Assembly: GCA_951812735.1 (NCBI GenBank)
Contig: OX638332.1
Span: 144,508-208,507 of the forward strand
From: Candidatus Dadabacteria bacterium
GTDB taxonomy: Bacteria; Desulfobacterota_D; UBA1144; Nemesobacterales; Nemesobacteraceae
Reading direction: 5' to 3'
Length of the DNA stretch: 64,000 bases
Every line of letters starts with the position of its first letter. Within the stretch, counting starts at the first letter, position 1. The notes under the pieces were generated by a model. It had not been told where the DNA came from and searched no databases. It saw only the letters and a program-made list of their open reading frames with translations. Both the position numbers and the translations under genes were made by a program. Shown in pieces: positions 4,175 through 56,362 of this stretch.

Positions 4175-4189
4175 ACGAAGGAGTTATCC

Positions 4190-8748: not shown

Positions 8749-8873
8749 TATGGATGGGGAACCCACAACAAACCTTTTTCAACAACCATTTGCTGAATCA
8801 TTAAGGAACTGATCTCTAAGCCGGAGTTCTAGGCAACTTACCATGCTCAGACAATATACCGCTCCTGCGGTAG

Positions 8874-37390: not shown

Positions 37391-37722
37391 TAAGCGACCT
37401 CAAAAGTCCAAGTAATATAATTATTCTGGTCTTTCTGTCAACAATTCGTTTTTGTATCGGTTTTTGAGCTAACTGGTTGTCCGGTTCTCGGGAATTTATC
37501 TTGATTGAATGCCCCCTTGCGGACTGTCTTATGTCGGGGCTTGCGGTGTTTTCTCTCAGGCATCCTTCTTTGCCTGAGTTTGAAATGCCGTTAAAAACAG
37601 CAGATAGCGCGCAAAGCGACCCTTCGGATTCCGGTCCGCGCAAGAGTCTTGATTAGGTTGCTTCTGCATGTTCACGAAACATTCCGGCAAACGCCGCGAA
37701 GCCGCTTTGAGGGGTACGGACA
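37391..37722. other. Intergenic region with hairpin
   Basis: 332 bp containing the metK promoter and an 8-bp perfect stem, CTCAGGCA (37555-37562) and TGCCTGAG (37571-37578). Neither side has a long T-run, so it is not a clear terminator for the SPFH operon that ends at 37723. Confidence 0.5.
37414..37441 (-). promoter_or_regulatory. Sigma-70 promoter for metK-ahcY
   Basis: On the minus strand TTGACA (37436-37441), 16 bp, TATATT (37414-37419). The start would fall close to 37407, giving a leader of about 17 nt before the metK ATG. Confidence 0.7.
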
Positions 37723-38214
37723 CTAGAAAAACCATACCAGCAGGACGATGCTGCACAGTCCACCGAGGATGAAACTCAGGGTGCTTATGGTGGCGGTCAC
37801 GGTGGCCAGATCTGCGAAATAGAATACCCTGCCATCAACCACGAACATGGCCTGATTGCGGTTGGTATCGCCATCGACAAACTTTTTCAATCCTTCTTCG
37901 GCTCCGTGCGCCTCTTTCACCGAGACCAGGGTAACCAGAAAGGTGGTAAGCGCGGAGGTCAGCACCCCGACACCAAACAGCGTCAGAATCAGAATGTTAA
38001 GCCAGTGGAAGGCTGAGGCTTCGCCCACCCTGGAAGACGACGCCATGAATCCGATGATCAGAGCGGCGCCGCCTCCATTGCCGAACAGCAGCATGCGAGT
38101 CGACTCCATAATCATCCTGTACATTACGTAACGTCGTCGCGCTACGACCTTGTACAATTCCCTTAACCACTCTTCGCCGACTTCTTCTGTGGAAAAATCA
38201 TCTAGTTTTTTCAA
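37723..38214 (-). CDS. Small membrane protein, last gene of SPFH operon
   Basis: The 163-aa protein has a charged cytoplasmic-type N-terminus (about 1-40), then hydrophobic helices at roughly 43-60, 72-95 and 135-160, a hydrophilic linker (EAHGAEEGLKKFVDGDTNRNQ, short block) between them. I know of no named family. The ATG overlaps the stop of the LivK-like gene by 4 bp, so it is translationally coupled to that periplasmic protein. It could be a membrane partner for the substrate-binding or SPFH proteins. Confidence 0.65.
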   Translation of the reverse strand: MKKLDDFSTEEVGEEWLRELYKVVARRRYVMYRMIMESTRMLLFGNGGGAALIIGFMASSSRVGEASAFHWLNILILTLFGVGVLTSALTTFLVTLVSVKEAHGAEEGLKKFVDGDTNRNQAMFVVDGRVFYFADLATVTATISTLSFILGGLCSIVLLVWFF

Positions 38215-39416
38215 GGTTCCCCTCTCTCTGTCTTGGAATCCTGACTACCGAAGTTTACAAGCCTGACATAGCTGGATCCGCTGTTTGACCCAGGCTTGAA
38301 TTCAATCAACCAGTCGTCAATAGCGATGGGGCCAGCTGAAAGCGCCTGCTTCATGAAGTTCTCCCGCGTAAGGTCGTCTCCCATGCGTTCGAGCATGGAT
38401 ATTACGAAGCGACCAAGAATATAACCCTCCAGAGATACTGTCTCGAAGACAACAGAATCTTTCTTTTCCTGTAGTTCCGCCTCTGCTCTGAGCGCGCGTC
38501 TGTAATTCTGAACGATTAAGCGGCTGGTGTCATCCGCACTGGGAACCACCTCCGTAACCAGAACCCTTTCTTTTGGTTTGTTGACCATTTTCCTGAGTTC
38601 GTGCGGCAGGGCAAAGGACAGATTGGCCATGAAGATATTCCCATATCCCAGATCACGGGCAAGGTTGATGATTTTGTAATTGGTCTCGCTGGTTCCGACT
38701 ATCAGTATGGAGTCGAGATCAGCTTTCATCATTGGGAAAAAACTGGCGTAAACTGCGTGCGTGTTACGTGAAAAAGTTGTTTTCGCCAGGATGGGAATAT
38801 CGTGATTCTCCTTGAGTACCTTTTCGTAGTCCCTTAACACGGAACGTCCAAATACATCCTCCTGATAGATGATGCCAAAACGTCTCTTGCCCTTAACGCG
38901 AACTATGTGATCAAGCAGCACTTCGATTTCCTGTATGTAGCTTGCCCTGAGATTGAGAACATTGGGAAACTTTTTCGAGTCATGCAGAAAATTGGCGCCC
39001 GTGACATGTCCGACGAAGGGTATTCCAGCGCTCAGCAGTACGGGTGCTATCTGCCTTGCCGTCGGGGTTCCCACACCGCCGATAACGGCCAGGACATCGT
39101 TTTCCGAAGCGAATCTCTTCGCGTTAGCAATAGCTTTTTTCGGTTCATACCCGTCGTCATGCGAAACCAGTTCCAGCATTCTGCCGTTTACTCCCCCGAG
39201 CCTGTTGCGCTCCGCAAACGCCGCCAGGATGCCCTGACGGTAGCGGAGGCCAAGCAGCTTGTTGTGTCCCGAGAAACAGGCACTCTGTCCGAAGACAATT
39301 TTTTTGCCGCTCACGCCGGGTGCTGCCACCGCTGAAGACAGCGGGAAAAGCGCCATAAGGCAGGCAAGCAGCAGGCCCACGAGTATCCGTTCCGTCTTTG
39401 TCCGCTGAACAACCAT
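38211..39416 (-). CDS. LivK-like periplasmic substrate-binding protein
   Basis: From ATG 39416 (AAGGA just upstream) the protein is about 401 aa with a signal peptide (RILVGLLLACLMALFPLSSA) and a type 1 periplasmic-binding fold: KIVFGQSACFSGHNK, RLGGVNGRMLELVSHDDGYE, VLAVIGGVGTPTARQIAPVL, FGIIYQEDVFGRSV and ILIVGTSETNYKII. The branched-chain amino acid binding family is clear; the ligand is not. No LivHMGF permease or ATPase is near. Its place in an operon of SPFH proteins suggests sensing or scaffold use rather than ABC import. Confidence 0.82.
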   Translation of the reverse strand: MVVQRTKTERILVGLLLACLMALFPLSSAVAAPGVSGKKIVFGQSACFSGHNKLLGLRYRQGILAAFAERNRLGGVNGRMLELVSHDDGYEPKKAIANAKRFASENDVLAVIGGVGTPTARQIAPVLLSAGIPFVGHVTGANFLHDSKKFPNVLNLRASYIQEIEVLLDHIVRVKGKRRFGIIYQEDVFGRSVLRDYEKVLKENHDIPILAKTTFSRNTHAVYASFFPMMKADLDSILIVGTSETNYKIINLARDLGYGNIFMANLSFALPHELRKMVNKPKERVLVTEVVPSADDTSRLIVQNYRRALRAEAELQEKKDSVVFETVSLEGYILGRFVISMLERMGDDLTRENFMKQALSAGPIAIDDWLIEFKPGSNSGSSYVRLVNFGSQDSKTERGEP

Positions 39417-39420
39417 GTCC

Positions 39421-40791
39421 TTATTCTTTTTTCCCTTTGTTTTCATGTTCTTTGCCGACGCTCTCTTTTTCATTCTGTCCGGCTTTGCCGTCGAGGCCTT
39501 CTTTGTTTTCTTTCTTCTCGCTCTCTTTTTCGCCAGGCACGCTGGACAGTTGTTTCTGGACGGTCCCGCTTACGACGGACGAAATCTTCTGCTCCAGGTG
39601 GGAATGGGAAAAGGACGGAAGGTCGAATATAAGAGAGCGGGGTCCGACAGAGAGGATATGATCGCGCTCGGTCCGTGACTTGTGATACTGACTGCTCACA
39701 GTTGCTTTGTCCGCTTCGGCGCTCTCCAGCCTGTGCAGGTCCGGAATGGCAGTCGACATAAGCGGTCTCCTGTCGCCGTCGGGGGCCGGTCCAGAAGACG
39801 GCTGACCCGTGAGAACTTCAACGGGCAGAGGCGCGAATTCCTGCCTATCTTCAATCATGTTGATGTCTATGGTCGCGTCTTTGTCCAGCTGCAGTACCGA
39901 AAGGCTGGCATCGGCGAAAATCGTGTTCATACGTTCCCAGTAGCGCGTGACGGCCACGTGCTTCGGGGCTTTCCTGTATTCGGCGAGCAGTTCCCTGAAA
40001 ACATTGGCACTGCTTTTCGCGGTAACGATTCTCTCATGAGCGTTTGCCTTCGCGCTCATTATCAGCGCGTCGGCCTGTCCATTGCTGTGGGCAAGCAGAT
40101 GTTCTTTCCTGGTGTTTGCGTTGCTTATGGTTTTCAGGCGTTCCGCGATGGCATCGTTAACGTCCCGAAACGCAAAAACCGCCTCCTCAACCGGACGCAC
40201 ATCGACGATGTTTAGCGAGACGACCTCAATGCCGGAATCTATGGCTTCAAGGCCTTCGATAAGTCCGTTCAGCAGGGTTTCGTGGACGAGGTCGCGGTTT
40301 GAAGTGAATATCAGGTCAATGAAGTTGCGCGAGAACACTTCTACCAGCTCCTTGCGCAAGAGCATGGTCATTGTCATCACCGGGTCTGAATTTCTGAACA
40401 GGTAGTTTTCCAGGTTCTTGATTTTGTACTGAACGGAAAAATCGACTTCAACAAGGTTCATGTCTCCGGACAGCAGCGTAAAGTTGGTGGCGCCGTTTTC
40501 CATGCTCGACACCTGATGCGTGACAACTCTTTTGACCTTGCGAACATAAAATTTTTGAATGAAAGGAATGCGGTAGCGTATTCCAGGGGCAACTTCCGCG
40601 TTGACGACCCTTCCAAACTGGGTAAGAACTCCCCGCTCTTCCTTCTTGATCACTTGAATGCCCGTGGCCGCAACACCCAGTACCACAACCGCGGCCAGCA
40701 GCGCCAGAAAGCGTTTTCTTCTGTAAAAGAAAAAATCAAATACGGAGTATATTATTCGCGTACTTTTCGGTAGCGGGGTTTTTTCACTCAT
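39421..40791 (-). CDS. SPFH/Band 7 protein, HflK-like
   Basis: The 456-aa protein has a single N-terminal membrane helix (about 26-50) and an SPFH domain: KKEERGVLTQFGRVVNAEVA, NFTLLSGDMNLVEVDFSVQY, VVSLNIVDVRPVEEAVFAFR and RDVNDAIAERLKT. HflK-type proteins form large cages around FtsH and regulate proteolysis. A long coiled helix region (about 215-275) is followed by an unusual polar, charged C-terminal tail of Glu/Lys (SEKKENKEGLDGKAGQNEKE). Its start overlaps the upstream HflC-like gene by 4 bp. Confidence 0.85.
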   Translation of the reverse strand: MSEKTPLPKSTRIIYSVFDFFFYRRKRFLALLAAVVVLGVAATGIQVIKKEERGVLTQFGRVVNAEVAPGIRYRIPFIQKFYVRKVKRVVTHQVSSMENGATNFTLLSGDMNLVEVDFSVQYKIKNLENYLFRNSDPVMTMTMLLRKELVEVFSRNFIDLIFTSNRDLVHETLLNGLIEGLEAIDSGIEVVSLNIVDVRPVEEAVFAFRDVNDAIAERLKTISNANTRKEHLLAHSNGQADALIMSAKANAHERIVTAKSSANVFRELLAEYRKAPKHVAVTRYWERMNTIFADASLSVLQLDKDATIDINMIEDRQEFAPLPVEVLTGQPSSGPAPDGDRRPLMSTAIPDLHRLESAEADKATVSSQYHKSRTERDHILSVGPRSLIFDLPSFSHSHLEQKISSVVSGTVQKQLSSVPGEKESEKKENKEGLDGKAGQNEKESVGKEHENKGKKE

Positions 40792-41702
40792 TGCCGATCC
40801 TTGCTGCCCGGCACTTCTTTGTTGTTCAGATATCTGAACAGTTCGTTGTCCGCCGGCAACATAAGAGTAGTGTTTCTGTCAATGATAAGATCATAGCTGT
40901 CAAGAGCCCGGATAAAATTGTAGAAATCCGGATCCTCCTTGTATGCCTCGCCCAGAAGCGACATCGCCTTGGCTTCCGCGTCGCCCAGAATGACAGCGGC
41001 TTCCGCGTGAGCGTCAGCCATGACTTTCTCATGCTTGTTGATGGCAAGAGCTTCAATACGAAGAGCCATTTCTTCTCCCTCGCTTCTATAGCGGGAGGCG
41101 ATACGGGCGCGTTCCGAGATCATCCGCTGGATCACGCTCGCCCGGTTCTCGACAGGCAGCGTGTATTCGACGATTCCTGTGCTGATCACCTCAATGCCGT
41201 AATCTTTTCTCGCGGTGGGCGCAACCATGGCAAGAATCCTGTTATTGGTCACGTTATGAAAATCTTCATGCTCCAGACCCAGTGTGATGAAAGAGTCCCG
41301 CGCTTCGTTGCTTATGACTATTCCGCTGCTGGAAATATAAAGGTCCCGCAGTCGGTTTATGGCGTTATCGTTGGTCCGTATCGCTTTTACAAACAGCATG
41401 GGATCGACTATGCGCCACAGAAGGTATCCTTCAACCAGAACATTCTTCTTATCCTCTGTGACGAGTTCCTGGCTGAGGCCGCCCAGAGTGTTAATGCGAC
41501 GGTCAACCTTGTAGACCTTCGATACGGGTCGAGGCCACTTCATGTGGAGCCCCGGCTGTTTCACGGGAGGAGATATCTTGCCGAAATGGGTCAGAACTCC
41601 CTGCTGGGTTTCGTTGATTATGTAGAAAATATCCGAAATCATTACGGAAATTACGATTACGGAAATAACGACCGCAACAATCTTTTTTGCTTTCTTTGTC
41701 AT
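40788..41702 (-). CDS. SPFH/Band 7 protein, HflC-like
   Basis: The 304-aa protein starts with a transmembrane helix (about 7-28, VAVVISVIVISVMISDIFYI), then the SPFH domain with NETQQGVLTHFGKISPPVKQ, LVTEDKKNVLVEGYLLWRIV and GIEVISTGIVEYTLPVENRA, and the helical region SERARIASRYRSEGEE and ILGDAEAKAMSLLGEAY typical of HflC. The 4-bp overlap ATGA with the permease-SPFH gene and the similar overlap with the next gene show tight coupling. It is not next to any hflX or FtsH gene here. Confidence 0.88.
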   Translation of the reverse strand: MTKKAKKIVAVVISVIVISVMISDIFYIINETQQGVLTHFGKISPPVKQPGLHMKWPRPVSKVYKVDRRINTLGGLSQELVTEDKKNVLVEGYLLWRIVDPMLFVKAIRTNDNAINRLRDLYISSSGIVISNEARDSFITLGLEHEDFHNVTNNRILAMVAPTARKDYGIEVISTGIVEYTLPVENRASVIQRMISERARIASRYRSEGEEMALRIEALAINKHEKVMADAHAEAAVILGDAEAKAMSLLGEAYKEDPDFYNFIRALDSYDLIIDRNTTLMLPADNELFRYLNNKEVPGSKDRQ

Positions 41703-43993
41703 TTTTCCTTCCTCTCAGAGTTATGTCGGGCAGCGTCGTCGACACCGGATCCCGACGGTTTTTTCTTCCAGAGCGCCACTCTGTCAAGAACATCCTCGCT
41801 GGGCACAATTATCTTGGGCTTGTCGGAAAGCGCCGTTTCGAGCTTCTCCCGCCAGAGCATGTTGCGAAGCACGTTAGGGGCGCTCCGTACGGCTCTTGCC
41901 ACACGGCGGATAGCGCCCGCCTCAGCGCCGGCGATTTTCTCCTTGCTATAGGCCTTCCCTTCGGCCTGTTTCGTTTCGTAATAGGCGTTGCCGTGTACCT
42001 GGCTAGCCACTGACACAAGAAATCTGTGGGCGTTGACAATGGTCCGCTCCTTATCGTCCTGCGCGTTTGAAACCTCCCGGAAAGCGTTGAACGTTTCGGG
42101 CAAGGGGATTACTGACAGCAGGTTTATCTTAATCAGTTCAACGCTGTCAAACACTTCAGACCCCGCAGCGGGTTTCTGCTTGCCTTCAAACAGCGAGGCG
42201 ACCGATTCTTCCAGAACCCTGCGCTCGACGTTAAACAGATGATCCATTTCCCTGCTGGATACAAAGTCCCGTATCTCTTCCTTTATGAAATTCTCGATGA
42301 CGGATTCCGCGTTGGTTATCCCGTAGTGATAGACATAGGGATCCTTTACGCGATATTGTACGTCAAGATCGATCGAGAATAAGTTCAGGTCGCCGGACAC
42401 ATACTCCCCGGATGCGGCAGCAATCGATTTTACTTCCCGGACAGGCCATTTATCAACCTTGACGAATGGCCAGGGAGCAAGATAGTGAAGACCGGGTTCC
42501 AGATCTTTCCAGTACACCTGGCCAAACAGACGACCATAGCCGACTGTGCCGGGATGCACGGTCGTGAAACCGCTGCTGAGCAGCAGCGCGAGGACAAGAA
42601 CGCAGAGTATGCCTATGCCTCGGAAAGAACCATGACTCCCCGCCGTCGACCATCTCCACAAGCTTCTCAAGTGCTTAAACAGGGGACGCAGGTTAGACAT
42701 GAGATCTTCGTAGCCGCTCTTCATGGCGCCGGCGCGGAATCTCCAGACTATCAGCGCGAACAAGGCGATTGCGCTCGCCCACTGCAGTATCTGGATAGCT
42801 GGGGAACTCGACATCTGTAGGGTGACGGGAATCGTCATACCGATGGCGAGAAGCAGCGCGTCGGCCGCGATCCCGATCAGGACGGTTACCACGATGACGG
42901 AACCTACGTAGATGGATGTAAATCGGCTTCCGAACTGACTGGCTATAATTGCGATGGTGGCAGTATTGGTTGCCGGGCCGGTCATGAGGAAAACGAGCGC
43001 CGCCCCGGGACTGAATCCCTTGGCGACCAGAGCGGCGGCAATCGGGGTGCTCGCGGACGCGCAGATGTACAGAGGAACTCCCAGAAGAACCATGACCGGA
43101 TAGGCTGCCCAGCGCGTGTACTCGCTTGATGTCAGATCGCCGGGTATGACTAGGAAAAGCAACGCGCCGAGAAAAATTCCAACCAGCAGGGAAAAGAGAA
43201 TGTCATCCGCTATTTCTACGAAACCGTAGTGGAGAATGTGCTTTGTTACTTTCTTGAAGTCCAGGCTCTCACTGTCGGCAGTCGCTGTCCCCCGGGGGGA
43301 TTCGAAGGAGGTTTTTTCGCTGTTCTCGCGGGACGAGAGCATGTCAAGATAGAATTTGGGCTTGACCCAGGATACCAGTTTTTTCTCCGAAAGCACCTTC
43401 GAGATTTTCCTGAACCAGTTGACAAAAGCGCCCCTGAACTGCGAAAAGCTTATATAGCAGTCATCTTGGTCGGGTACCATAGGCTCGTGCGTTCCGTGGT
43501 CGTGGTCGTCATGGCAGTGGGTGTGACAGCTATGGTCATCATCATGTTCGTGATGCTCATGTTCGGCGTTTTTCTTTTCGTCATGGTCGTCCCTAATGCT
43601 TCCTATGCAGAATATGCCGGCGACGACAGCGGTGATGAAGCTGACGATGGGTCGGGCAATCGCTACAATCGGTCCGAAGAAAGCGTTTGTAACGAGAATT
43701 GAGTCCGCACCTGTTTCCGGCGCGGTTATCAGAAACGACATGCAGGCTGAACGGGACGCTCCCTTTCTTCGCATCTCGGCAACCACAGGTACCACTGAAC
43801 AGCTGCAAAGCGGCATAGGCACGCCGACAGCTGCACTGGTACTTACCGATTTCAGGCTGTCGTCGTGGAGCCATCTGAGAATCGCCTTGCGGGAGATGAA
43901 CACATGAATTACACCCGAAAGGAACAGGCCGAGCAACAGCATTGGCGCCAAGAGGATGAAGGACAACCACAGAAAATCAAAGAAACTAAACAT
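41699..43993 (-). CDS. DUF318-type permease fused to an SPFH domain
   Basis: The 764-aa fusion joins two families. Residues 1-450 are a permease of the SO_0444 Cu/Zn efflux type: VPMPLCSCSVVPVVAEMRRK with Cys63/Cys65, a cytoplasmic or external His/Asp-rich loop (about 135-170, EHEHHEHDDDHSCHTHCHDD), and a second half with LYICASASTPIAAALVAKGF and FLMTGPATNTATIAII. After a short loop, a further helix (about 458-475) leads to an SPFH domain (about 475-735, TVHPGTVGYGRLFGQVYW, IDLDVQYRVKDPYVYHYGI, INLLSVIPLPETFNAFREVS). The His-rich loop suggests metal binding. SPFH is normally separate, so this is a physical link between a transporter and a scaffold. Confidence 0.85.
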   Translation of the reverse strand: MFSFFDFLWLSFILLAPMLLLGLFLSGVIHVFISRKAILRWLHDDSLKSVSTSAAVGVPMPLCSCSVVPVVAEMRRKGASRSACMSFLITAPETGADSILVTNAFFGPIVAIARPIVSFITAVVAGIFCIGSIRDDHDEKKNAEHEHHEHDDDHSCHTHCHDDHDHGTHEPMVPDQDDCYISFSQFRGAFVNWFRKISKVLSEKKLVSWVKPKFYLDMLSSRENSEKTSFESPRGTATADSESLDFKKVTKHILHYGFVEIADDILFSLLVGIFLGALLFLVIPGDLTSSEYTRWAAYPVMVLLGVPLYICASASTPIAAALVAKGFSPGAALVFLMTGPATNTATIAIIASQFGSRFTSIYVGSVIVVTVLIGIAADALLLAIGMTIPVTLQMSSSPAIQILQWASAIALFALIVWRFRAGAMKSGYEDLMSNLRPLFKHLRSLWRWSTAGSHGSFRGIGILCVLVLALLLSSGFTTVHPGTVGYGRLFGQVYWKDLEPGLHYLAPWPFVKVDKWPVREVKSIAAASGEYVSGDLNLFSIDLDVQYRVKDPYVYHYGITNAESVIENFIKEEIRDFVSSREMDHLFNVERRVLEESVASLFEGKQKPAAGSEVFDSVELIKINLLSVIPLPETFNAFREVSNAQDDKERTIVNAHRFLVSVASQVHGNAYYETKQAEGKAYSKEKIAGAEAGAIRRVARAVRSAPNVLRNMLWREKLETALSDKPKIIVPSEDVLDRVALWKKKPSGSGVDDAARHNSERKEK

Positions 43994-44458
43994 AGGCTAA
44001 AAAAGAGAGTAAAAACCCGGCTTCAAACCGTACTTTTCCATTGTTCCGAGATTACGAAAGAACCGACGCAACGACATGCCCTGACAGAACGAAAAAAAAA
44101 ACCGCTCAGACGTTTTATGACCGTCGCTCGCTTTTTACGAAATATATATCCGTATACCTAAGCACATAGTTCGGAAAAAATCAAACGAATAGCGGCTTTG
44201 TATCTGTACCTCCGCTTGCCTGTATTGCTGTTTTTCCGAATGACTGATGTAGAGTGATGACATCCGGGTTCCCGCCAATTCCACCACTATGTGAAGAGGC
44301 CCTTGATTGAAAAAAATTTTGAAAAACATTATGTTATTAGTTTTGCCCATGGTGTGATTCTCTTTGTGGTGCTGGGGGGATGTCAATTCCTTGCCCCCTT
44401 TATGTGAATGAGAGGGGGTAGTGAGAGTCACTGTAAGAAGTCCTAGGATCTTGCGCAC
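43994..44458. other. Divergent intergenic region upstream of SPFH operon and Na/Pi gene
   Basis: 465 bp with no credible ORF. A run of ten A near 44093-44102 reads as T on the operon strand; a GGGGG/CCCCC hairpin (about 44374-44398) precedes the Na/Pi gene. Promoters for both sides must lie here but I cannot pick one with confidence. Confidence 0.4.
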
Positions 44459-45607
44459 ATGGCACCGATAAAACAGACAGACATCCGATCAAGGTTCGTT
44501 CCGTGGCTCATCGTCATAGTGGCCTTATACGTGCTGCTCGTGGCAGTTGGCTTGATCGGCGCGGGTTTTCGTCAAGCGTTCGGCGGTACAGAAGGCGTCA
44601 AATCTTTGTTCGTATTTGCGACGAACCCGTTTATCGGACTGATTCTCGGCATACTGATGACCGCCTTGGTCCAATCTTCCAGCACTGTTACATCCGTCAT
44701 CGTCGGTCTTGTGGCGGGGGGAATGCCTATTGCCGTAGCAATACCGATGGTCATGGGTGCCAATGTCGGAACTACGGTAACCAACACGATTGTTAGCCTC
44801 GGTCATATCAGGCAGCCGGGGGAGTTCAGAAAGGCATTTGCGGCTGCCACTATACACGACTTTTTCAATATTCTTAGTATCGCGATATTCCTGCCATTGG
44901 AACTCGGGTTTGGTATCCTTGAAAAACTTAGCGGCGCGGCGACGCACATAATTGAGAACATGGGAACCGTTGATGCTTCGGGAAAAGGCATAGTGAAGGT
45001 CATCATCGGTTCCGGCACCGATTTCGTAGAGTCCTTGGTATCTGGTCTGCCTGACCAGTTGGCAGGTTCGGTACTGATTGTCGCAGGAATCGCGTTCATC
45101 CTCCTGTCAATAATGTATCTCGGAAAAGCGCTGAAAACTGTATTCGCAGGCAGGTCCCAGAAGTTTCTGCAGGGGGCCGTTGGTAAGGGGCCGGTAACCG
45201 GCATATTTTCCGGTACTGTGGTTACAGTGCTGGTGCAGTCGTCCTCGACTACCACAAGCCTCATCGTGCCTTTGGCGGGTAGCGGTGTTATAGGTCTTCG
45301 TCATGTCTATCCGTTCACGCTTGGAGCCAATATCGGGACGACGATCACTGCGCTTCTCGCGGCAACTGCGATAACAGGCCCCACTCATGCCATCGCACAT
45401 CAAATCGCAATTGCGCACTTATTCTACAATTTGTTGGGTGTTATCGTAATCTACAGCATTCCTTGGCTGCGAGACATTCCGATGGCGGGAGCCGAGTGGA
45501 TCGCGCGGCTCGCGAGTGAGTGGAAAGGGTTGGCCGTCGCATACATCCTCCTTGTATTTTTCGGTGTTCCAGCAGGGTTGGTGTTTTCTTATGCTTGGCT
45601 GTTCTGA
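44459..45607 (+). CDS. Na/Pi cotransporter family protein
   Basis: The 382-aa membrane protein has the two inverted QSSS repeats of the SLC34/NptA family: ALVQSSSTVTSVIVG (about 74-88) and VLVQSSSTTTSLIVPLAGSG (about 258-277), each followed by GANVGTTVTN and GANIGTTITA. Sodium-driven phosphate import is the family role. It stands alone on the plus strand beside metal genes; metal phosphate handling is speculative. Confidence 0.9.
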   Translation: MAPIKQTDIRSRFVPWLIVIVALYVLLVAVGLIGAGFRQAFGGTEGVKSLFVFATNPFIGLILGILMTALVQSSSTVTSVIVGLVAGGMPIAVAIPMVMGANVGTTVTNTIVSLGHIRQPGEFRKAFAAATIHDFFNILSIAIFLPLELGFGILEKLSGAATHIIENMGTVDASGKGIVKVIIGSGTDFVESLVSGLPDQLAGSVLIVAGIAFILLSIMYLGKALKTVFAGRSQKFLQGAVGKGPVTGIFSGTVVTVLVQSSSTTTSLIVPLAGSGVIGLRHVYPFTLGANIGTTITALLAATAITGPTHAIAHQIAIAHLFYNLLGVIVIYSIPWLRDIPMAGAEWIARLASEWKGLAVAYILLVFFGVPAGLVFSYAWLF

Positions 45608-45961
45608 ATGCCGCGCGTATAACCACGATCACGTCTTTTGATCTGGGGATGGTGTTCAGCCCTCATCTCCGAGATCCTGCTTCTGTCTTCAATTTCCTCC
45701 GGGCGTTTGCTTTTATGTCCACTCTGCCCGGGACAGCCAACCGTCTTGACTAAGCTTGTATATCAGGAATCTTTTTTTCCTAGGCCAAGTGCGTATATGG
45801 ATCGGATAACCTCCTTTGTTTGCTGACTTGATTGTCTTTGCGCGCTCGGTTCTTTCAGTCGAGGTGTAACGCCTCAAAATGGTTTAAACCTGTTTTCAGG
45901 AGTAGTGCACTTCAAGGTCCCACGGGCGTAATTTTTTCGCTTGTAAAAAGGTGCTGGACAA
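45608..45961. other. Intergenic region before the CzcC-like gene
   Basis: 354 bp. Several short ORFs are present but lack ribosome sites and family resemblance. AAGGTG at about 45947 serves the next gene. I see no convincing promoter pair. Confidence 0.4.
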
Positions 45962-47266
45962 ATGCGGGAAACATCATTGCTATGTGCCTTTTGTGTAGCA
46001 GTTGCTTTGCTGGCAGGAGTCTTTCCACAGCCGCTAAGAGCGGACGAGCCGCACCTGCTGGAAGTCCATAAACACGAGAAGTGTATTTATAGTAGCGGTT
46101 CCATGCTTACTCTGTCAGATGCTATCCAGAATGCTCTGGATAACTCGCCGCGCATCAAATCGGCTGCTGCCGTTGCCGAAGCCGCGAAGGGTACGGAAAA
46201 CCAGGCGGGACATCGCCCGAATCCGGAAATTGCATTTGAGATGGAAAATGTTGCCGGCAGTGGAAGCTTCGGCGGGACGGACTCGGCTGAATTTACCTAC
46301 AGCTTAACGCAGACCGTTGAGATTGGCGGCAAGCGCGCCGCGCGCATCAACGCTGCAAAGGCGGCCCGAGGGGCGGCCGCTAAGGCATTGGCGGCTGAAA
46401 GACTAAACCTTGAGCGCGATGTTCGTATAGCGTACTTGAATATTCTGGCTGAAGACGAGGCAGTCAGTCTTGCCGTGCGACAGGAGCAGTTAGCCAGGCA
46501 TGTTCTAGACACCGTGTCCGAACAGGTGCGTGCCGCCGCGAAACCGGAAATTCAGCTGAGCAAAGCGGAAGTGGCTTACGTAACAAGCGTTATTGCGCGC
46601 GAGCGAAAAGAACATGAACTGGAAATCGCCAAAGAGAGACTCGCAAAACTGTTAGGAGTTTCCGCGTTGAACAGTTCACTTGACCGCGCTGATTTCTTTG
46701 AGTTTAAAGCCCCGGATTCCATAGAAGGCTATCGCGCGAATCTCGCTCGTATTCCCGATATGCGAAGATTTTCCTATATGAAAACGGAAAAGGAATCGCT
46801 GCTGGATCTGGAGCGCGCGCTGGCTATTCCAGACCCGGACTTCAGCCTCGGCGTAAGGGATTTCAGGGAAAGCGGCGATCAGTCCCTTGTTTTCTCCGTC
46901 TCGTTTCCCATACCGATTTTTAATCAGAACAAGGGAAATGTCACCAGAGCTCGCGCGGAAGTCGTACAGGCGGCAAGCGATGCCCGGCAGGCCGAACTGA
47001 TTCTGGAGTTGCAGCTTATGCAGAACTGGACACAATGGAACACTTCTTACTCAGAAGCGCAAAGATTGAAAACGGAGCTGCTGCCATCTGCGAAGAAAGC
47101 GTTTGAGCTGGCGCGCGCGAGATACGCCAAAGGCAGGTTTTCCTATTACGAAATGCTTGACGCGCAACGCACCCTGTTTGATGCCATGTCCCAATATTAC
47201 GATTCGTTAAAGCTCTATCACACCGCCCGTGCCAATGTGAAGCGGTTAACGGCCGTAGCGCAATAA
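45962..47266 (+). CDS. czcC: CzcC/TolC-type outer-membrane efflux protein
   Basis: The 434-aa protein has a signal peptide (CAFCVAVALLAGVFPQPLRA), a short His-containing stretch and then the OEP repeats: LTLSDAIQNALDNSPRIKSA, AGHRPNPEIAFEMENVAGSG, QTVEIGGKRAARINAAKAAR, and in the second half SFPIPIFNQNKGNVTRARAE and YAKGRFSYYEMLDAQRTLFD. This is the CzcC/CusC outer membrane channel for heavy metal RND export. The czcB and czcA genes are 3.8 kb away, separated by the znu/porin genes on the other strand. Confidence 0.92.
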   Translation: MRETSLLCAFCVAVALLAGVFPQPLRADEPHLLEVHKHEKCIYSSGSMLTLSDAIQNALDNSPRIKSAAAVAEAAKGTENQAGHRPNPEIAFEMENVAGSGSFGGTDSAEFTYSLTQTVEIGGKRAARINAAKAARGAAAKALAAERLNLERDVRIAYLNILAEDEAVSLAVRQEQLARHVLDTVSEQVRAAAKPEIQLSKAEVAYVTSVIARERKEHELEIAKERLAKLLGVSALNSSLDRADFFEFKAPDSIEGYRANLARIPDMRRFSYMKTEKESLLDLERALAIPDPDFSLGVRDFRESGDQSLVFSVSFPIPIFNQNKGNVTRARAEVVQAASDARQAELILELQLMQNWTQWNTSYSEAQRLKTELLPSAKKAFELARARYAKGRFSYYEMLDAQRTLFDAMSQYYDSLKLYHTARANVKRLTAVAQ

Positions 47267-47450
47267 AGGTATGATGCCTTGGGGAAGCGACGGCAAGTCA
47301 GGCTGAGGAAAATCGGGTGGTTGAAGAAAAGCAACTCTTTTTGCTTGGAAAACGCTTCCTATCAGGTCTGATTACAAAATTTTTTCTGACCTCAGGGTCT
47401 CCGTCCGCCTCAGCGTATACCGCGAGGAATGAACCTCTCCTGCCCGCATC

Positions 47451-48227
47451 TTATCCCTCCACTCCGCGAACATTTCTGCCGTTGCTTTTCGTAACCGTCC
47501 GTATGATTATCGCGGACAGCGCATACGCGAGGACGATTACAGGGCCCACGGGCTGATCAAATACCGTTGCGATCGTTATTCCTGAAAGCAGGGCTGTGAT
47601 TCCGCAGAACCATGCCGTGACATGTGGTCGTTCTGAGTGTACCGCGGCCAGAGCCGGGAGTATAAGGCTTGCGAAGACCACGTAAACGCCGACCAGCTGG
47701 ACCGATGAAGTGATGGCGAGAGCAAAGAGCAGGTAAAACCCCATGTTGTTTCGCACCCCAGGCTTGGAAAACCAGGCCAGCAGTATCAACGCGTAAACGG
47801 GCGCGTGTTTAGCTACGTCTGTCCATGTTACAAACAGCATCTGTCCCGAAAGCAGGTACTTTACCTCATCTCCGCCGTGAGGATGGTCTGCGAGCAGCAG
47901 AAGCGCCAGCGATGCGGCAAGCACAAAAGCGCATCCTATGATAGCTTCTTGGTGCCTGGGCATCGTCTTTTCTATTTTTCTGAAAACAAGTCCGGCCGCG
48001 ATCGCGTGGCCAAGCGCTATGAACTGGATCAGCCAAGGAGACGGATCATGGATGAACATGTTTCCGACCACAAGCCCAAGCCCCGCGATTTGCGCCACGG
48101 CAAGATCAATAAAGATGATGCCGCGACGGAGCACCTCGATTCCCAGAGGAGCGTGAGTGAGTGCGATCATGAGGCCGGCTACTATGGCAGGCCCGACGAT
48201 TTCCAGAAGTTCATTGCTGAACATCAT
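47451..48227 (-). CDS. znuB: ABC metal transporter permease (ZnuB-like)
   Basis: The 258-aa membrane protein has the ABC-3 permease pattern: PLGIEVLRRGIIFIDLAVAQ and IAGLGLVVGNM at the start, AIIGCAFVLAASLALLLLAD mid-way, and QLVGVYVVFASLILPALAAV with the EAA-like loop. It forms a zinc or manganese importer with the adjacent ZnuA, which it overlaps by 17 bp. No ATPase gene follows. Confidence 0.9.
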   Translation of the reverse strand: MMFSNELLEIVGPAIVAGLMIALTHAPLGIEVLRRGIIFIDLAVAQIAGLGLVVGNMFIHDPSPWLIQFIALGHAIAAGLVFRKIEKTMPRHQEAIIGCAFVLAASLALLLLADHPHGGDEVKYLLSGQMLFVTWTDVAKHAPVYALILLAWFSKPGVRNNMGFYLLFALAITSSVQLVGVYVVFASLILPALAAVHSERPHVTAWFCGITALLSGITIATVFDQPVGPVIVLAYALSAIIIRTVTKSNGRNVRGVEG

Positions 48228-49131
48228 AGGTCTCCCTCAACAAATCTATGATTCTGTCAAACAGTGCGAACAGGTCGCCGCTTTGCTCGTCACCGCCGAC
48301 GGTGTAAGGAAGAACTACTGCCCTTGTCCCGGTTTTCTCCGACAACCATTCACTCGAGTCATCCGGATCGGAATGGGCGCGGATAATCACGTCCGCAGGG
48401 CCGTTTCTTAACTTTTGCAGCAGATTTTTCAGATGGGAAGTTGTCGGCGGAATGCCGGGTTTTGGCTCAAGTGTCCCTACTTGTTTCATCCCGAGCCAGT
48501 CAATCAGATAAGTAAACGATTTGTGATGAACCACAACGGGTTTTCCTTTGAGTACGGCAGCCTCTGATTCCCATCGGGAAATTGCAGCGCGAAAGCGTGA
48601 GGAGAAATCCCGGTAGCTGTTTTTATAAAAAGAGGCGTTTTCAGCGTCGATTCCCGAAAGCCGTTCCGCAAGCACTTTGCCCACCGTCATCAGGTTGTAC
48701 GGATTCAGGTGCACATGGGGGTTGCCTTCCGGATGTACGTCTCCCATGCTGCGGTCAACCACGACCGGAACTTCGAGCATCGTAACCACATCCGCTGCCA
48801 TAAGGTAACCGATGGAACCGGGCTGGAGGTCGGAGCTTGCTTTCTGAAGCAGAATCGGAAGCCAGCCTATCTCAAGACTCGCGCCCGAGCAGAGCAGCAG
48901 ATCGGCTTTGCGCGCTCTGGATATTAGGCTTGGACGCGCCCGTATGTAATGGGGGTCCTGTGTCGCCGAAGTGGCCGAAACCGCTTCCACCTTGTCACCG
49001 CCGATTTCCTGGGCCAGCGCCGCCCATTCCGGTTCACAGGCAAATACTTTTACCTTTGCGAAAGAAAATGCCGGGGCCACGAAAAGCAGCCCCGGCAGGA
49101 GGATGGAAAGGAGAGTCAGGAGATGTTTCAT
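48211..49131 (-). CDS. znuA: Zinc/manganese-type solute-binding protein (ZnuA-like)
   Basis: The 306-aa periplasmic protein has a signal peptide (LLSILLPGLLFVAPAFS) and the TroA-family metal site: DPHYIRARPS (His about 61), a His-containing HPEGNPHVHLNPYN loop and GKPVVVHHKSFTYLIDWLG, with a C-terminal Asp in RAHSDPDDSSEW. Zinc or manganese is the likely ligand. It lies 9 bp after the porin gene, suggesting a porin-znuA-znuB operon. Confidence 0.92.
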   Translation of the reverse strand: MKHLLTLLSILLPGLLFVAPAFSFAKVKVFACEPEWAALAQEIGGDKVEAVSATSATQDPHYIRARPSLISRARKADLLLCSGASLEIGWLPILLQKASSDLQPGSIGYLMAADVVTMLEVPVVVDRSMGDVHPEGNPHVHLNPYNLMTVGKVLAERLSGIDAENASFYKNSYRDFSSRFRAAISRWESEAAVLKGKPVVVHHKSFTYLIDWLGMKQVGTLEPKPGIPPTTSHLKNLLQKLRNGPADVIIRAHSDPDDSSEWLSEKTGTRAVVLPYTVGGDEQSGDLFALFDRIIDLLRETYDVQQ

Positions 49132-49140
49132 AGGTTGCTC

Positions 49141-50547
49141 TTAGAATTTATGCGCGGCGTGGGCACCTATGCCCATTATGTACTGGAGCAGGATCTGGTT
49201 GTCGGTTAGATCCTCTCCTACTTTTTCGTGGTTGTACTGAAGGCGTATGCGGGAAAACTCGCTGTTTGACCAGTCGCCCATGACCGCTACCGCGTAGGGG
49301 TCGTGTTCTATCCCTGAATCCTCGGGAGAGTAAATCTGGGAATAACGCGCGCCTATTCTCCATTTCGGCGAGAACTTGAAAACCCCTTGCGCATACCAGC
49401 CTTGGCTTCCCCCGTCGAGGCGCTCTTCGCTAACCTCGTCTCCTTCCACAAGGGTGTAGACGCCTTCTTCATCACGCCAGAAATATTCACCCTGGAAAAG
49501 CAGTTCCTTATCGTGGGCGTTTCCGGTCGGCACCCACACGTAGCGGAGATCGAGCGTGTAGAGCCTCGTGTCGCCCGTGAACATGCCGGCGGTGAAAAGT
49601 TCCTCAAATCCTTCCTCCATCTCTTCTTCTTCTTCACTCTCACCGTTTTCTTCATCTCCGTGTTCACCTCCCCCGCCGCGGCCGCTTGCCTCTCCGTCAA
49701 GCAGATAGCCTCCGATTCTCCAGGCTGAATTCCGGCCTATGTCACCACCTACCCGCAGGAAGGCGCTGAATGAGTTTATGTCGCTCCCCTCGGCTCCGGC
49801 GAAGGGGAGGTCATCTCCCCTGAAGATTCCGCCTCCCGCCTCAACATAGAACTCAGTTGGAAGCACATATGAAATCTGTGCTCCGGTATCATTAAACGCC
49901 TTGTTGAGAAATACCCTGTAAGGCAGGGGACGATCGGCGAAGTCATCAGAGTGGGAGTGATGTTCGTTCAGGTATCCCATAGTCCAGAACGCGCGTCCCA
50001 TCCTTATGGTAGCTCCTGTCGGAAGCCCGAAGCCGGGGAGGGTCTCCACGTATGCTTCTTCAACCTCGACTTCAACTCCGTCTTCCCCGTCCACAAGGGC
50101 CGTGGTTATGTGAGCGTAGAATTTATCGTCAACGCTTGTCGAAAAATTAAGTTCGGTTTCCCCAAGGGAAATTCCTTCCGCCCCACGTTCTCCCTCATGC
50201 CCCAGGGGGAACCCGGGAATTTCGTCCTCATCCGAAGAAAAGGCGGCGAATCGTCCGCCCAGTATTACTCCGATTGAAGGGTTAAGATTCCTGTTGTAAA
50301 TAGCCCTGCTGGGGTAGGCCCTATCCTTGCTTTTTGAGTAGGTAGTTTCCGCCTGAGATGCTTCGGACTCCATCCCTGCGAGTTTTTCTTCCATTTTTAA
50401 AATCCGGTTTTCATATTCCGATCTCATATCCTGTATCTCCTTCTTTAAAGCCTCTATCTCCTGATCTGAAGCGGCAGAAGCGGAGATGTGGGAGAACGGC
50501 AAGACGGCAAAAAACACGGTTATGACCGCGAAACGTAATATATTCAT
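49141..50547 (-). CDS. Outer-membrane porin-like protein, Zn-associated
   Basis: The 468-aa protein has a signal peptide (about 1-24), a coiled-coil segment (about 27-67, EIEALKKEIQDMRSEYENRI), then alternating beta-strands ending in HAAHKF with a C-terminal Phe, typical of outer membrane beta-barrels. Loops contain HHSHSDDF and an acidic/His GGGGEHGDEENGESEEEEEM block, consistent with cation binding. I recognise no exact family; the operon with znuAB suggests Zn passage. The ATG is preceded by GGAGG. Confidence 0.75.
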   Translation of the reverse strand: MNILRFAVITVFFAVLPFSHISASAASDQEIEALKKEIQDMRSEYENRILKMEEKLAGMESEASQAETTYSKSKDRAYPSRAIYNRNLNPSIGVILGGRFAAFSSDEDEIPGFPLGHEGERGAEGISLGETELNFSTSVDDKFYAHITTALVDGEDGVEVEVEEAYVETLPGFGLPTGATIRMGRAFWTMGYLNEHHSHSDDFADRPLPYRVFLNKAFNDTGAQISYVLPTEFYVEAGGGIFRGDDLPFAGAEGSDINSFSAFLRVGGDIGRNSAWRIGGYLLDGEASGRGGGGEHGDEENGESEEEEEMEEGFEELFTAGMFTGDTRLYTLDLRYVWVPTGNAHDKELLFQGEYFWRDEEGVYTLVEGDEVSEERLDGGSQGWYAQGVFKFSPKWRIGARYSQIYSPEDSGIEHDPYAVAVMGDWSNSEFSRIRLQYNHEKVGEDLTDNQILLQYIMGIGAHAAHKF

Positions 50548-50571
50548 TTTTTCCTCCTTTAAGTTTGAACT

Positions 50572-50597
50572 GTTTCCCGATTGTATGCTCGGGAAAC
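50572..50597. other. Intercistronic perfect hairpin
   Basis: GTTTCCCGA (50572-50580) and TCGGGAAAC (50589-50597) pair over 9 bp with an 8-nt loop, between the small exported protein and the porin. Next to it CCTAAAA and TTTTAGG (about 50598-50624) form a second short stem. There is no T-run, so they may tune readthrough or protect the mRNA. Confidence 0.55.
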
Positions 50598-50619
50598 CCT
50601 AAAAAACCTCTTTACCGTT

Positions 50620-50910
50620 TTAGGAGGAAAGGGGAGGTCCGCGGGTAATTCCCGCCTTGTAAGCGTCCCGAACTATGATAATGCCAGTGGATGGCTGCGC
50701 AACGTACTCCGCGTGGCGAAGAAGAGAGGCTTCACTGTCAGCACCGGGACTTGAGCAGTCCTGATGTTTGGCGCTCAGGCATATCTCGCAGGCAGTTCCC
50801 TCATGCTCGTGTTCCGAGGAACCGTACTCGGCCGCATGGGGAAAGGAAAGCGTCTGCACCCCCAGAAAGGCGATTGTCAGTAGTAAGGAAAGTGTCTTGC
50901 TCATCTGCAT
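50620..50910 (-). CDS. Small exported His/Cys protein (DUF2946-like)
   Basis: The 96-aa precursor has a signal peptide (MSKTLSLLLTIAFLGVQTLS, then FPHAAEYG). The mature part holds HEHEGTACEICLSAKHQDC, a compact His/Cys cluster like those of DUF2946-type proteins often linked to metal transport. The first ATG is at 50910, and a second at 50904 is equally likely. It sits just before the porin and directly below a Fur-like box. Metal binding is inferred. Confidence 0.65.
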   Translation of the reverse strand: MQMSKTLSLLLTIAFLGVQTLSFPHAAEYGSSEHEHEGTACEICLSAKHQDCSSPGADSEASLLRHAEYVAQPSTGIIIVRDAYKAGITRGPPLSS

Positions 50911-50914
50911 TGTT

Positions 50915-50935
50915 AAATGAGAAATGTTTTCATTT
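50915..50935. promoter_or_regulatory. Fur/Zur-type palindromic operator
   Basis: A 21-bp imperfect palindrome centred at 50925, left arm AAATGAGAAA and right arm GTTTTCATTT. It matches 17 of 21 positions with the site before the Fur-family gene. It lies 5 bp upstream of the small exported protein start and between it and the divergent czcB gene. Confidence 0.65.
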
Positions 50936-51120
50936 ACTCTAGCATACGGGAAAGTTTGGTGTCAAGGGAGTGGTTCAGGTTGTCGTTTTACAATGTCAAA
51001 ATGCCTTGGTATTCTTTCCTTTGCGGCAACGCTGACCGTCTAAGTAATTGTCGCTATAGTCTAATCTTGGTTGTCGTTCAATTGGACCATACACATGAGC
51101 GGTTCTCACCACCCTGGATA

Positions 51121-52095
51121 ATGCGTATATTGGTTCTGACATTATTGTTAAGCAATGCTGGTTACGCTGTTATACATGACGGGTTCCCGAAGGAGGCTTA
51201 CGCGGTTGATAATCAACATAAGAATGAATACGAGGAACTCGAGCACGACAGTGGTAAAGAACAGGAAAAGACAAGAATCTCTTCGGACTTCGCGGAGCTT
51301 TCCGGTATTGAAGTGATGGAGGCTTCGCCCATGAAAGTGACGACGACAAAACTGCTGACGGGGCGCGTCACTTTGAACAAAAACAATACCGCCAATGTCC
51401 GCGCCCGTTTTCCGGGCCCTGTTCATGCGGTGCACGTCAGACTTGGGGAAAAGGTCAAAAAAGGCCAGAATCTTGCCACGGTTGAAAGCAACGAAAGTCT
51501 GATAACCTACGAAGTTGTTTCGCCTATAGATGGCGTGGTTATCAAACGCGGAACAAATGTCGGGGATGTTGCGGGCGGCAAGGAGATATTTGTGATTGCT
51601 GACTTATCAACGGTATGGGCAAGATATCATATCTTTCCGCGCGACATGAAGTACATCAAAAAAGGCCAGACGGTAGATATCCATTCACTGGACGAGACTC
51701 ACTCTGAGGATGAGAGACTACGGCAGACGGCCAGAATATCCATGCTTTTTCCTACCGCCGATGTCTCAAGCCAGACAGTTATAGCCATCGCGGAATTATC
51801 CAATGAAGACGGTATATGGCGTCCAGGCATGGTAATTCAGGGCATTATCAATATAGCTGAGAAACAGGCTTCAATAGCCGTGCCGAAAACAGCCCTTCAA
51901 CATATGGGAGATCAGCAAGTCGTCTTCATAAGGAACGGCGATACCTATGAATCGCGCCCTGTTAAGGTCGGCATGATGGGCACAACTAACGTTGAGATCG
52001 TCTCCGGGCTTGAGCGCGGAGAAACTTACGTGAGCCGTGGAAGCTTCGTCGTTAAGGCCGATCTTTTAAAATCAACAACCGTACATACACACTGA
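51121..52095 (+). CDS. czcB: HlyD-family periplasmic adaptor (CzcB-like)
   Basis: From ATG 51121 the protein is 324 aa, with signal-like start MRILVLTLLLSNAGYAVIHD. It has an N-terminal acidic/His-rich stretch, FPGPVHAVHVRLGEKVKKGQ and VVSPIDGVVIKRGTNVGDVA as the barrel-sandwich hybrid, and beta-barrel segment IAELSNEDGIWRPGMVIQGI. This is the membrane fusion subunit of a metal RND system. A 5' extension to 50917 has no ribosome site and no homology, so the inner start is used. czcA follows 17 bp later. Confidence 0.88.
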   Translation: MRILVLTLLLSNAGYAVIHDGFPKEAYAVDNQHKNEYEELEHDSGKEQEKTRISSDFAELSGIEVMEASPMKVTTTKLLTGRVTLNKNNTANVRARFPGPVHAVHVRLGEKVKKGQNLATVESNESLITYEVVSPIDGVVIKRGTNVGDVAGGKEIFVIADLSTVWARYHIFPRDMKYIKKGQTVDIHSLDETHSEDERLRQTARISMLFPTADVSSQTVIAIAELSNEDGIWRPGMVIQGIINIAEKQASIAVPKTALQHMGDQQVVFIRNGDTYESRPVKVGMMGTTNVEIVSGLERGETYVSRGSFVVKADLLKSTTVHTH

Positions 52096-52109
52096 GCCAA
52101 GAGTGCTGA

Positions 52110-55256
<3,147 letters not shown>

Positions 55257-55371
55257 TATATGACGTCATTTTTGTGTTGACGGGTACAATGACTTGAGCT
55301 TGATTCTCGCATCATCCGTCGTGAAACGCCACCCCTCAACCTGACAGAAAAAATTTAAATTTCTTTGGGAA

Positions 55372-55767
55372 TCAGTGATCGCAGGAGCCGTCTTGCCTGC
55401 AGAACCTGAAATTGCGCAGGTGGCCGAGAATCATGATGAAAGCGCCGATAAAAGCAAGGACGTATTCCATGTAGCCCGTAGTTGCGAAGATTCCTACCAA
55501 GATAAAACAAAGCCCCAGAACTACCAGCACGATAACGCTCAAATCCTTATGGCGTCTGCAGCCGAGAAGTACGGCGATCGTACTTACGGGAATAACCGCA
55601 AAAAGCATCATCTCGTGAAAAACCTCTTCAAACTCAAACGCAACCGCCGAACCCACGACCGGGAACAGTATGAGCGCCACCGGTACCGCAAAGCAGTGGA
55701 CAGCACAGACGCCCGCAAAGAATAGCGAGGTATAATCGGTGAGTTTCTGAATTCTTGTCTGGTCCAT
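55372..55767 (-). CDS. MerC-like membrane protein
   Basis: The 131-aa protein has four hydrophobic segments and a Cys-x-x-His-Cys motif (GVCAVHCFAVPVALI) as in MerC-family mercury/metal uptake proteins, with a terminal CRQDGSCDH. It follows the Fur-family gene by 6 bp on the same strand, so it is in the regulator's operon and could carry zinc. The MerC name reflects the domain; mercury transport is not supported by mer genes here. Confidence 0.8.
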   Translation of the reverse strand: MDQTRIQKLTDYTSLFFAGVCAVHCFAVPVALILFPVVGSAVAFEFEEVFHEMMLFAVIPVSTIAVLLGCRRHKDLSVIVLVVLGLCFILVGIFATTGYMEYVLAFIGAFIMILGHLRNFRFCRQDGSCDH

Positions 55768-55773
55768 ATGTTG

Positions 55774-56220
55774 TCAGGCCGCCTCCACACACTTTCCGCA
55801 CTGACCGAAAAGCTGTATAAAATGATCCTTCACGCGGAACCCCTGTTTTTCAACCGAAGCGTAATCAAAGTTCTCCGCCGGACACTCGGAGAAATCGAAA
55901 ACCCCCCTGCAGTCAACGCACACCATGTGATGAACGTGCTCGCCCTGGGAAAACGCGTAGCCGTGACCGCCGTCGGGGAAATGAAGGCGCTTAACGATGC
56001 CCAGATCTTCGAACATCTCAAGTGTTCTGTAGATAGTGGCAAGTCCCGTGTTACCCAGCATATCCTTCACCCCGCCGTGTATTTCGCCGATTGAAAGCAA
56101 TTTCTCGCTCATGTGAAGAATATGAACGACGGCGAGGCGCTGCGTAGTTGACTTAAGTCCCTTTTCCCGCAGAACCTCCTTGGCATACGATTCCTGCATG
56201 CATTCAAAATCTTTCGTCAT
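55774..56220 (-). CDS. Fur-family transcriptional regulator (Zur-like)
   Basis: The 148-aa metal-responsive repressor has the winged helix (LKSTTQRLAVVHILHMSEKL, ATIYRTLEMFEDLGIV), the HVHHMVCVDC block with Cys101-x-x-Cys104 and the second pair CGKC (141-144). Both Cys pairs bind a structural zinc in the family. Its neighbours (znu, MerC, small exported protein) favour Zur over Fur, but metal choice cannot be decided by sequence. Met8 (ATG 56199) is an alternate start. It is autoregulated if the adjacent palindrome is its site. Confidence 0.9.
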   Translation of the reverse strand: MTKDFECMQESYAKEVLREKGLKSTTQRLAVVHILHMSEKLLSIGEIHGGVKDMLGNTGLATIYRTLEMFEDLGIVKRLHFPDGGHGYAFSQGEHVHHMVCVDCRGVFDFSECPAENFDYASVEKQGFRVKDHFIQLFGQCGKCVEAA

Positions 56221-56227
56221 CAGAATT

Positions 56228-56254
56228 ATTAAATGAGAATAATTTTCAATTAAT
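56228..56254. promoter_or_regulatory. Fur/Zur-type palindrome upstream of the Fur-family gene
   Basis: ATTAAATGAGAAT, one centre base, then ATTTTCAATTAAT: 11 of 13 arm positions complement. It lies 8 bp before the fur start codon and ahead of the short plus-strand ORF at 56363, so it could control both directions. Confidence 0.7.
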
Positions 56255-56362
56255 CCTTATTGTAATCAGTTATTGCTAACCGTCAAGGGCAAAAATCGGA
56301 CATGCAACTTATTCTCTACACGCGTTCTGACAAAAAACGAATTCTTCAGGAGGAGTAGGTTT

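Follow-up and report, generated by a model that had tools for sequence, protein, structure and literature searches.

HflK and HflC are modulators of FtsH, and the roles of SPFH assemblies beyond this modulation are a standing question. SPFH domes enclose membrane proteins: that of HflK/C houses FtsH, and the stomatin dome houses AQP1 and UT-B (PMC12407830). SO_0444, which represents a family of Cu/Zn efflux permeases, is required for growth under Zn or Cu stress, and its operon also encodes a ZntR-like regulator (PMC3219624); an exporter of the same type in Nitratiruptor is induced by Cd and Cu (PMC10092412). Here we describe a minus-strand operon of five genes, gA to gE (37723-43993). The product of gA joins an SO_0444-type permease to an HflK-like SPFH domain, and the other four genes encode an HflC-type protein, a second HflK-like protein, a binding protein, and a three-helix membrane protein. 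The operon belongs to a stretch of 64,000 nucleotides (hereafter the window) from contig OX638332.1 of a Candidatus Dadabacteria bacterium, whose source genome is probably sponge-associated, and it recurs in the same gene order in Latescibacterota.

The component families are already known, and earlier work has noted HflK/C-like genes next to those of metal transporters without explaining them. The HflK/HflC-like genes PA2437-PA2439 of Pseudomonas aeruginosa, which presumably correspond to PA14_33070-33110 in PA14, cluster with the gene for the Zn/Cu P-type ATPase HmtA (PA2435). Their expression is 9- to 14-fold higher in a znuA mutant (PMC4542158), the PA2439 promoter is bound by Zur (PMC8531726), and the proteins are more abundant at Zn depletion (PMC11761036). 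Deletion of PaFlo5-7, the three-SPFH operon of PA14, had little effect in assays that are not reported to include metal limitation (PMC13086221). A search of papers in one open-access library found no description of an SO_0444-HflK fusion with gD and gE, of its conservation in two phyla, or of the parallel CDF-HflK fusion presented below.

Architecture of the operon

The five genes, in the order of transcription, and the layout of gA are as follows.

gA, 41699..43993, minus strand: 764 residues, SO_0444-type Cu/Zn efflux permease plus HflK-like SPFH domain
gA layout: permease, residues 12-417; K/R-rich linker, 418-458; transmembrane helix, 459-477; SPFH domain, about 480-734
gB, 40788..41702, minus strand: 304 residues, HflC-type SPFH protein with a single N-terminal transmembrane helix
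gC, 39421..40791, minus strand: 456 residues, HflK-like SPFH protein extended at its C terminus by ~130 residues
gD, 38211..39416, minus strand: 401 residues, Peripla_BP_6 binding protein with a signal peptide
gE, 37723..38214, minus strand: 163 residues, three-helix membrane protein with a TTG start

The open reading frames (ORFs) confirmed the proposal of the initial annotation that the five genes are co-translated: gA/gB, gB/gC, and gD/gE overlap by 4 bp, and gC and gD are separated by a gap of 4 bp, with the ATG of gD at 39416. This ATG begins a typical signal peptide; with the alternative in-frame ATG, at 39473, gD would overlap gC. The families assigned in the initial annotation (SPFH in three proteins, a metal-type permease, and a binding protein) were borne out by the Pfam and NCBIfam matches; its small membrane protein, gE, matched none. 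The ratio of nonsynonymous to synonymous substitution rates (dN/dS) between the window genome (G000) and its relative G025 is 0.14-0.49; together with a gene order common to two phyla, this indicates that the operon is not a product of chance.

The first 417 residues of gA scored 342.9 bits against NF033936, the NCBIfam model of SO_0444-type Cu/Zn efflux (cut-off 300), and the permease part also matched PF03773 (ArsP_1, 159.6 bits). The SPFH part matched PF01145 (Band_7, 45.5 bits). The permease motif C63-S-C65 (PLC63SC65SVVP) is invariant among the aligned sequences and conforms to the CxC/UxC pattern of the family, whose UxC variant has been listed (PMC13188914); a His-rich loop spans residues 134-264. 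By family, gA is therefore a candidate Cu/Zn exporter. It agrees with the SO_0444 family in exceeding the curated cut-off and retaining the CxC motif, but unlike SO_0444 it carries an HflK-like SPFH domain and shares its operon with genes for HflC, HflK, a binding protein, and gE. The fusion is present in two further genomes of the genus and in six of Latescibacterota, and scans of viral contigs with gA and gE as queries gave no matches. The link to metals that had been suggested earlier was substantiated by the NF033936 score of gA, by the location of the operon in a metal island, and by the ZIP and CopA-like genes that follow it in Latescibacterota.

Affinities and topology of the SPFH proteins

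The initial annotation stated that the operon does not match hflKC. Its three SPFH domains were confirmed, but their type proved to be HflK/HflC-like. The Band_7 protein gB scored 164.4 against TIGR01932 (HflC), above the cut-off of 134.4, and fell inside the HflC clade with support of 100/98 in a tree of 40 SPFH proteins. The SPFH domain of gA and the Band_7 protein gC were placed on the HflK side (99/96), each as a separate group with support of 100/100, and the closest solved structure for both is E. coli HflK (7vhp). The order of the trio is thus K-C-K, with gA-SPFH on the K side, gB as C, and gC again on the K side, and by its sequence affinities the trio is derived from hflKC.

The linker of gA has 8 K/R ahead of the helix at 459-477, as judged from transmembrane prediction and charge count, and basic N-termini precede the sole helix in gB and gC. 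The positive-inside rule therefore predicts a periplasmic location for each of the three SPFH domains, with the N-in topology of HflK/C. The resemblance to E. coli HflK/HflC (7vhp, 7wi3) extends to the HflC score of gB, the HflK-side placement of gA-SPFH and gC, and this predicted topology. Unlike the E. coli complex, the operon encodes two HflK-type subunits, one of them fused to a transporter, and gC has a long conserved C-terminal tail. This tail of ~130 residues contains the conserved block TERDH...PRSLIFD.PS.FSH.H, in which TERDH and PRSLIFD are invariant, and the conserved region falls outside the segment matching E. coli HflK; it could be a docking segment.

The window genome has two additional SPFH genes (named by eye), one stomatin-like beside an NfeD/ClpP-like gene (L001) and one prohibitin-like. 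No NfeD gene, as sought for NfeD-linked stomatins and flotillins, is present in the operon; the NfeD/ClpP-like gene neighbors the stomatin-like gene elsewhere in the genome. Two SPFH genes are the baseline of the genus (one genome gave a single match), and five were found only in the three genomes with the full operon. As only these genomes exceed two, canonical hflKC is absent from the genus.

The binding protein gD and the membrane protein gE

In addition to its signal peptide, gD has a match to PF13458 (Peripla_BP_6, 136.1 bits), and its closest solved structure is 4kv7 (E value of 4e-39). It shares the signal peptide and the Peripla_BP_6 domain with LivK-type ABC binding proteins and TorT-type sensors; unlike those systems, its operon contains neither ABC genes nor a kinase. 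No gene for an ABC permease or ATPase lies beside gD in the operon, the rest of the genome not having been searched for Liv genes. For gE, no match was found in Pfam or NCBIfam, and none by sequence in the PDB. AlphaFold2 modeled it as three helices with a predicted local distance difference test (pLDDT) score of 64, and a fold search of the PDB with this model gave no E value below 0.19. The Latescibacterota counterparts are 56-63% identical for gD and 58-62% for gE.

Latescibacterota also encode a paralog of gD (38-40% identity) whose gene overlaps that of a histidine kinase bearing a sensor domain of the TorS type; RsbW-like and SpoIIE-type genes adjoin this pair (L051:12355-16977 and L052:16135-17771). 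The locus is probably a TorT-like partner-switching system. Because the paralog overlaps a kinase with a TorS-type sensor domain, a sensory role for gD is plausible by analogy.

Recurrence in Latescibacterota

A genome scan found the fused gA, with 59% identity, in two metagenome-assembled genomes, L020 (Latescibacterota) and L021. The latter (JAPOOT010000483.1) is titled Gemmatimonadetes, but it shares synteny with L020 around this locus and falls in the Latescibacterota set; the record is likely mislabeled and was not taken as a third phylum. The order gA-gB-gC-gD-gE was found in 7 of the 16 Latescibacterota genomes examined (G058, G059, G063, G065, G066, G069, and G072; G063 is readable as far as gD, where it meets a run of N, G066 is frameshifted, and gA of G069 is split over two contigs) and is kept in three Dadabacteria genomes. 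The recurrence of all four neighbors beside the fused permease, which had been proposed as a test of the set, was therefore observed. Identities to the window are about 63% for the permease, 54% for the SPFH part of gA, 71% for gB, 48% for gC, 58% for gD, and 59% for gE, with a range of 47-71% over the block. Where the assembly is readable, a ZIP transporter and a CopA-like ATPase come next after the block in Latescibacterota. The presence of the same five-gene set in a distant phylum suggests a cage built around the pump.

Four other genomes (G064, G067, G070, and G071) have the permease at the same site, before the ZIP and ATPase genes, without SPFH, gD, or gE. Neither the permease-alone sequences (approximately unbiased (AU) test, p = 8e-16) nor the fused ones (p = 2e-11) form one clade in the permease tree, which requires at least three changes between the two states; a tree with an Aureibacter outgroup was discarded because of an aberrant row, and these results come from the tree without it. 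The SPFH-gD-gE block was therefore gained or lost as a unit, loss being more likely, and the permease can exist on its own.

The two-ORF gA of G066 was considered as an ancestral unfused form and rejected, since a frameshift within the linker causes the break and gB is frameshifted too; the two ORFs therefore do not point to fission. In G027/L018 (L091), the break near the N terminus of gA is likewise due to a frameshift. These frameshifts in conserved genes (the start of gA in G027, and the gA linker and gB in G066/L046) are either assembly errors or real.

Parallel loci in Aquibium and Pseudomonas

The conjugative plasmid NZ_CP018172.1 of the marine bacterium Aquibium oceanicum carries genes annotated as hflK-hflC-hflK, followed by a PPIase-annotated gene and one for a ZntA-like P-type ATPase (L075:8287-11932). 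The first of these 'hflK' genes encodes a CDF domain (PF01545, 89 bits, residues 8-198) fused to an HflK-like SPFH domain, so that a second metal-transporter family occupies the same place of a K-C-K trio. The Aquibium trio likewise presents a transporter-HflK fusion, HflC, and HflK in a row with a heavy-metal P-type ATPase after them. Unlike the window operon, it has a CDF transporter and a PPIase-annotated gene, and it lacks gD and gE.

The hmtA cluster PA2434-PA2439 (PMC4542158, PMC13086221) similarly has SPFH genes beside a Zn/Cu transporter. It differs in that the transporter is a P-type ATPase importer and the cluster is induced by Zn starvation; an SO_0444 permease, a binding protein, and gE are not reported there. 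The statement in the initial annotation that the operon resembles none known to it does not take account of the Pseudomonas and Aquibium clusters. By analogy, the CDF-HflK fusion and the hmtA cluster suggest that metal transport may be a recurring job of HflK/C-like trios which, if true, gives the uncharacterized PaFlo5-7 operon a testable role.

A proposed cage around a metal exporter, and its alternatives

Because SPFH rings enclose cargo and the exporter family has a known role in Cu/Zn resistance, we favor a cage of HflK/C type to which a Cu/Zn exporter is covalently tethered and whose periplasmic compartment contains gD, a reading for which we consider the chances about even. The exporter gA would be covalently tied to one subunit of an HflK/HflC-like hetero-oligomeric SPFH ring in the inner membrane, completed by gB as HflC and gC as the second HflK. 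From the predicted topology, the SPFH domains and gD would be periplasmic, and the pump would discharge its metal, presumably Cu or Zn, into or under the SPFH dome, which may hold or recruit gD; the roles of gD and gE are likewise presumed. The SPFH portion would be an accessory that corrals, stabilizes, or gates the pump, which fits the finding that the permease-alone loci are not one clade. Fusion of the transporter to a ring subunit implies that the cargo would be tethered, which fits the enclosure of membrane proteins by SPFH rings. The stomatin dome is likewise an SPFH ring around a membrane transporter, as is proposed here for gA; it differs in being non-covalent, in serving water and urea transport, and in belonging to human red cells. 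Transporter-HflK fusions name their cargo outright, and with them transporter-corralling SPFH domes become testable in bacteria.

Several observations weigh against this proposal. Both HflK-side proteins stayed below the TIGR01933 (HflK) cut-off of 159.4, gC narrowly (152.7) and gA-SPFH more clearly (116.9). The pairing of gA with the first Aquibium HflK and that of gC with the second gave AU p values of 0.39 and 0.35, and the joint clade had support of 36/71; these values neither support nor reject a common origin of the two trios. The family of gD comprises amino-acid-type rather than metal-binding proteins, and the Pseudomonas SPFH genes lie in a Zn-starvation cluster with an importer, so that efflux need not be general. 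The AlphaFold2 model of gA, built with four sequences, had a pLDDT of 31 and was discarded.

The HflK/C-like trio might instead be an FtsH adaptor, the tethered SPFH domain delivering the exporter to FtsH; regulated proteolysis, instead of encapsulation or gating, would then determine how much exporter is present. The established role of HflK/C as FtsH modulators speaks for this, as do the single full-length FtsH of the window genome (G000:C1:211814-213553) and a genus that otherwise lacks HflK/C and has only stomatin-like and prohibitin-like SPFH genes. We nevertheless regard it as unlikely, since no FtsH gene accompanies the operon, either in the window or at the related loci read, a covalent fusion to the pump would be a costly way to mark a substrate, and ten genus-mates manage without any HflK/C, which indicates that FtsH does not need it in this genus. 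Another possibility is a sensory or flux-control unit, in which gD would bind a periplasmic ligand (an amino acid or a metal chelate) and gate or report on the permease through gE and the SPFH ring, in a TorT-like role. The lack of an ABC partner for gD in the operon and the kinase-overlapping paralogs of gD in Latescibacterota would agree with such a unit. Neither a kinase nor a regulator adjoins gD in the operon, however, gE has no known signaling fold, and the ligand of gD is only putative, so this too seems improbable to us.

Loose hitch-hiking, by which unrelated membrane genes stand together merely because the metal island is mobile, would fit the recent movement of the island within the genus and its patchy presence. 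It is difficult to reconcile with the permease-SPFH fusion and the 4-bp couplings, with the identical gene order at 47-71% identity in a different neighborhood of another phylum, or with an SPFH-gD-gE block that is either wholly present or wholly absent, and we consider it very unlikely. Returning to the cage, we can also imagine a dome with exporter-bearing subunits that acts as a bacterial membrane-encapsulin, a periplasmic chamber that would capture exported metal with a dedicated binding protein and that would have arisen at least twice, around transporters of different families (SO_0444 permease and CDF). This extension is speculative, and we rate it as doubtful.

A metal island flanked by metK and rpe

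The operon sits inside an island of ~19 kb, whose other genes and flanks are listed below.

metK, 36242-37390: island flank
Metal island (approximate), 37391..56502, no strand: delimited by the metK-rpe adjacency in genus-mates and by synonymous divergence (dS) far below that of the flanks
Na/Pi-symporter family protein, 44459..45607, plus strand: divergent from gA; NF037997, PF02690
CzcC/IhpA-like outer-membrane efflux protein, 45962..47266, plus strand: NF045679, PF02321
ZnuB-like ABC-3 permease, 47451..48227, minus strand: PF00950
ZnuA/AztC-like metal-binding protein, 48211..49131, minus strand: PF01297 (132.8), NF040870
468-residue protein with an N-terminal signal-like stretch, 49141..50547, minus strand: no NCBIfam or Pfam match; an outer-membrane protein only as a guess
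CzcB/IhpB-like adaptor, 50917..52095, plus strand: NF045680 (227), TIGR00999 (126)
CusA/CzcA heavy-metal RND pump, 52113..55256, plus strand: TIGR00914 (1535.7; cut-off 701)
MerC-domain protein, 55372..55767, minus strand: PF03203 (87.6)
Fur-family regulator, 55774..56220, minus strand: PF01475 (100.7)
rpe, 56503-57306: island flank

In 10 genus-mates metK directly adjoins rpe, and the whole intervening stretch of the window is missing. The island is present in G025 and G027 over the stretches read, and G018 has its end (gE and gD) where the contig stops. Between G000 and G025, dS is 0.03-0.16 for the measured island genes (0.34 for znuA) and 0.44-1.08 for six flanking core genes; against G018, gE and gD have dS of 0.22-0.23 and core genes 0.42-0.57. 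With dS values this far below those of the flanking core genes, the island has moved within the genus since the core genomes of the lineages diverged.

The island in the window contains no P-type ATPase gene, and an Rfam scan of 36000-57500 gave no matches. At 47451-50547, the ZnuB- and ZnuA-like genes are followed by the gene for the 468-residue protein, and a ZnuC-type ATPase gene is not among them. A palindrome upstream of gA (44322), AAAAACATTATGTTATT, was considered as a Fur/Zur box but is not proposed as one; its core is kept in G027 and was not found in G025.

Elsewhere in the window, G+C content is low (0.41-0.44) over 6-12 kb in the region 3452-11287. By eye, products of ORFs there resemble a phage Gp37/Gp68-type protein and a three-Cys-motif partner-like protein, and two others seem to have FRG-like segments, combined in one case with TPR repeats and in the other with pentapeptide repeats. 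Judging from this content, the region is possibly a defence or mobile region.

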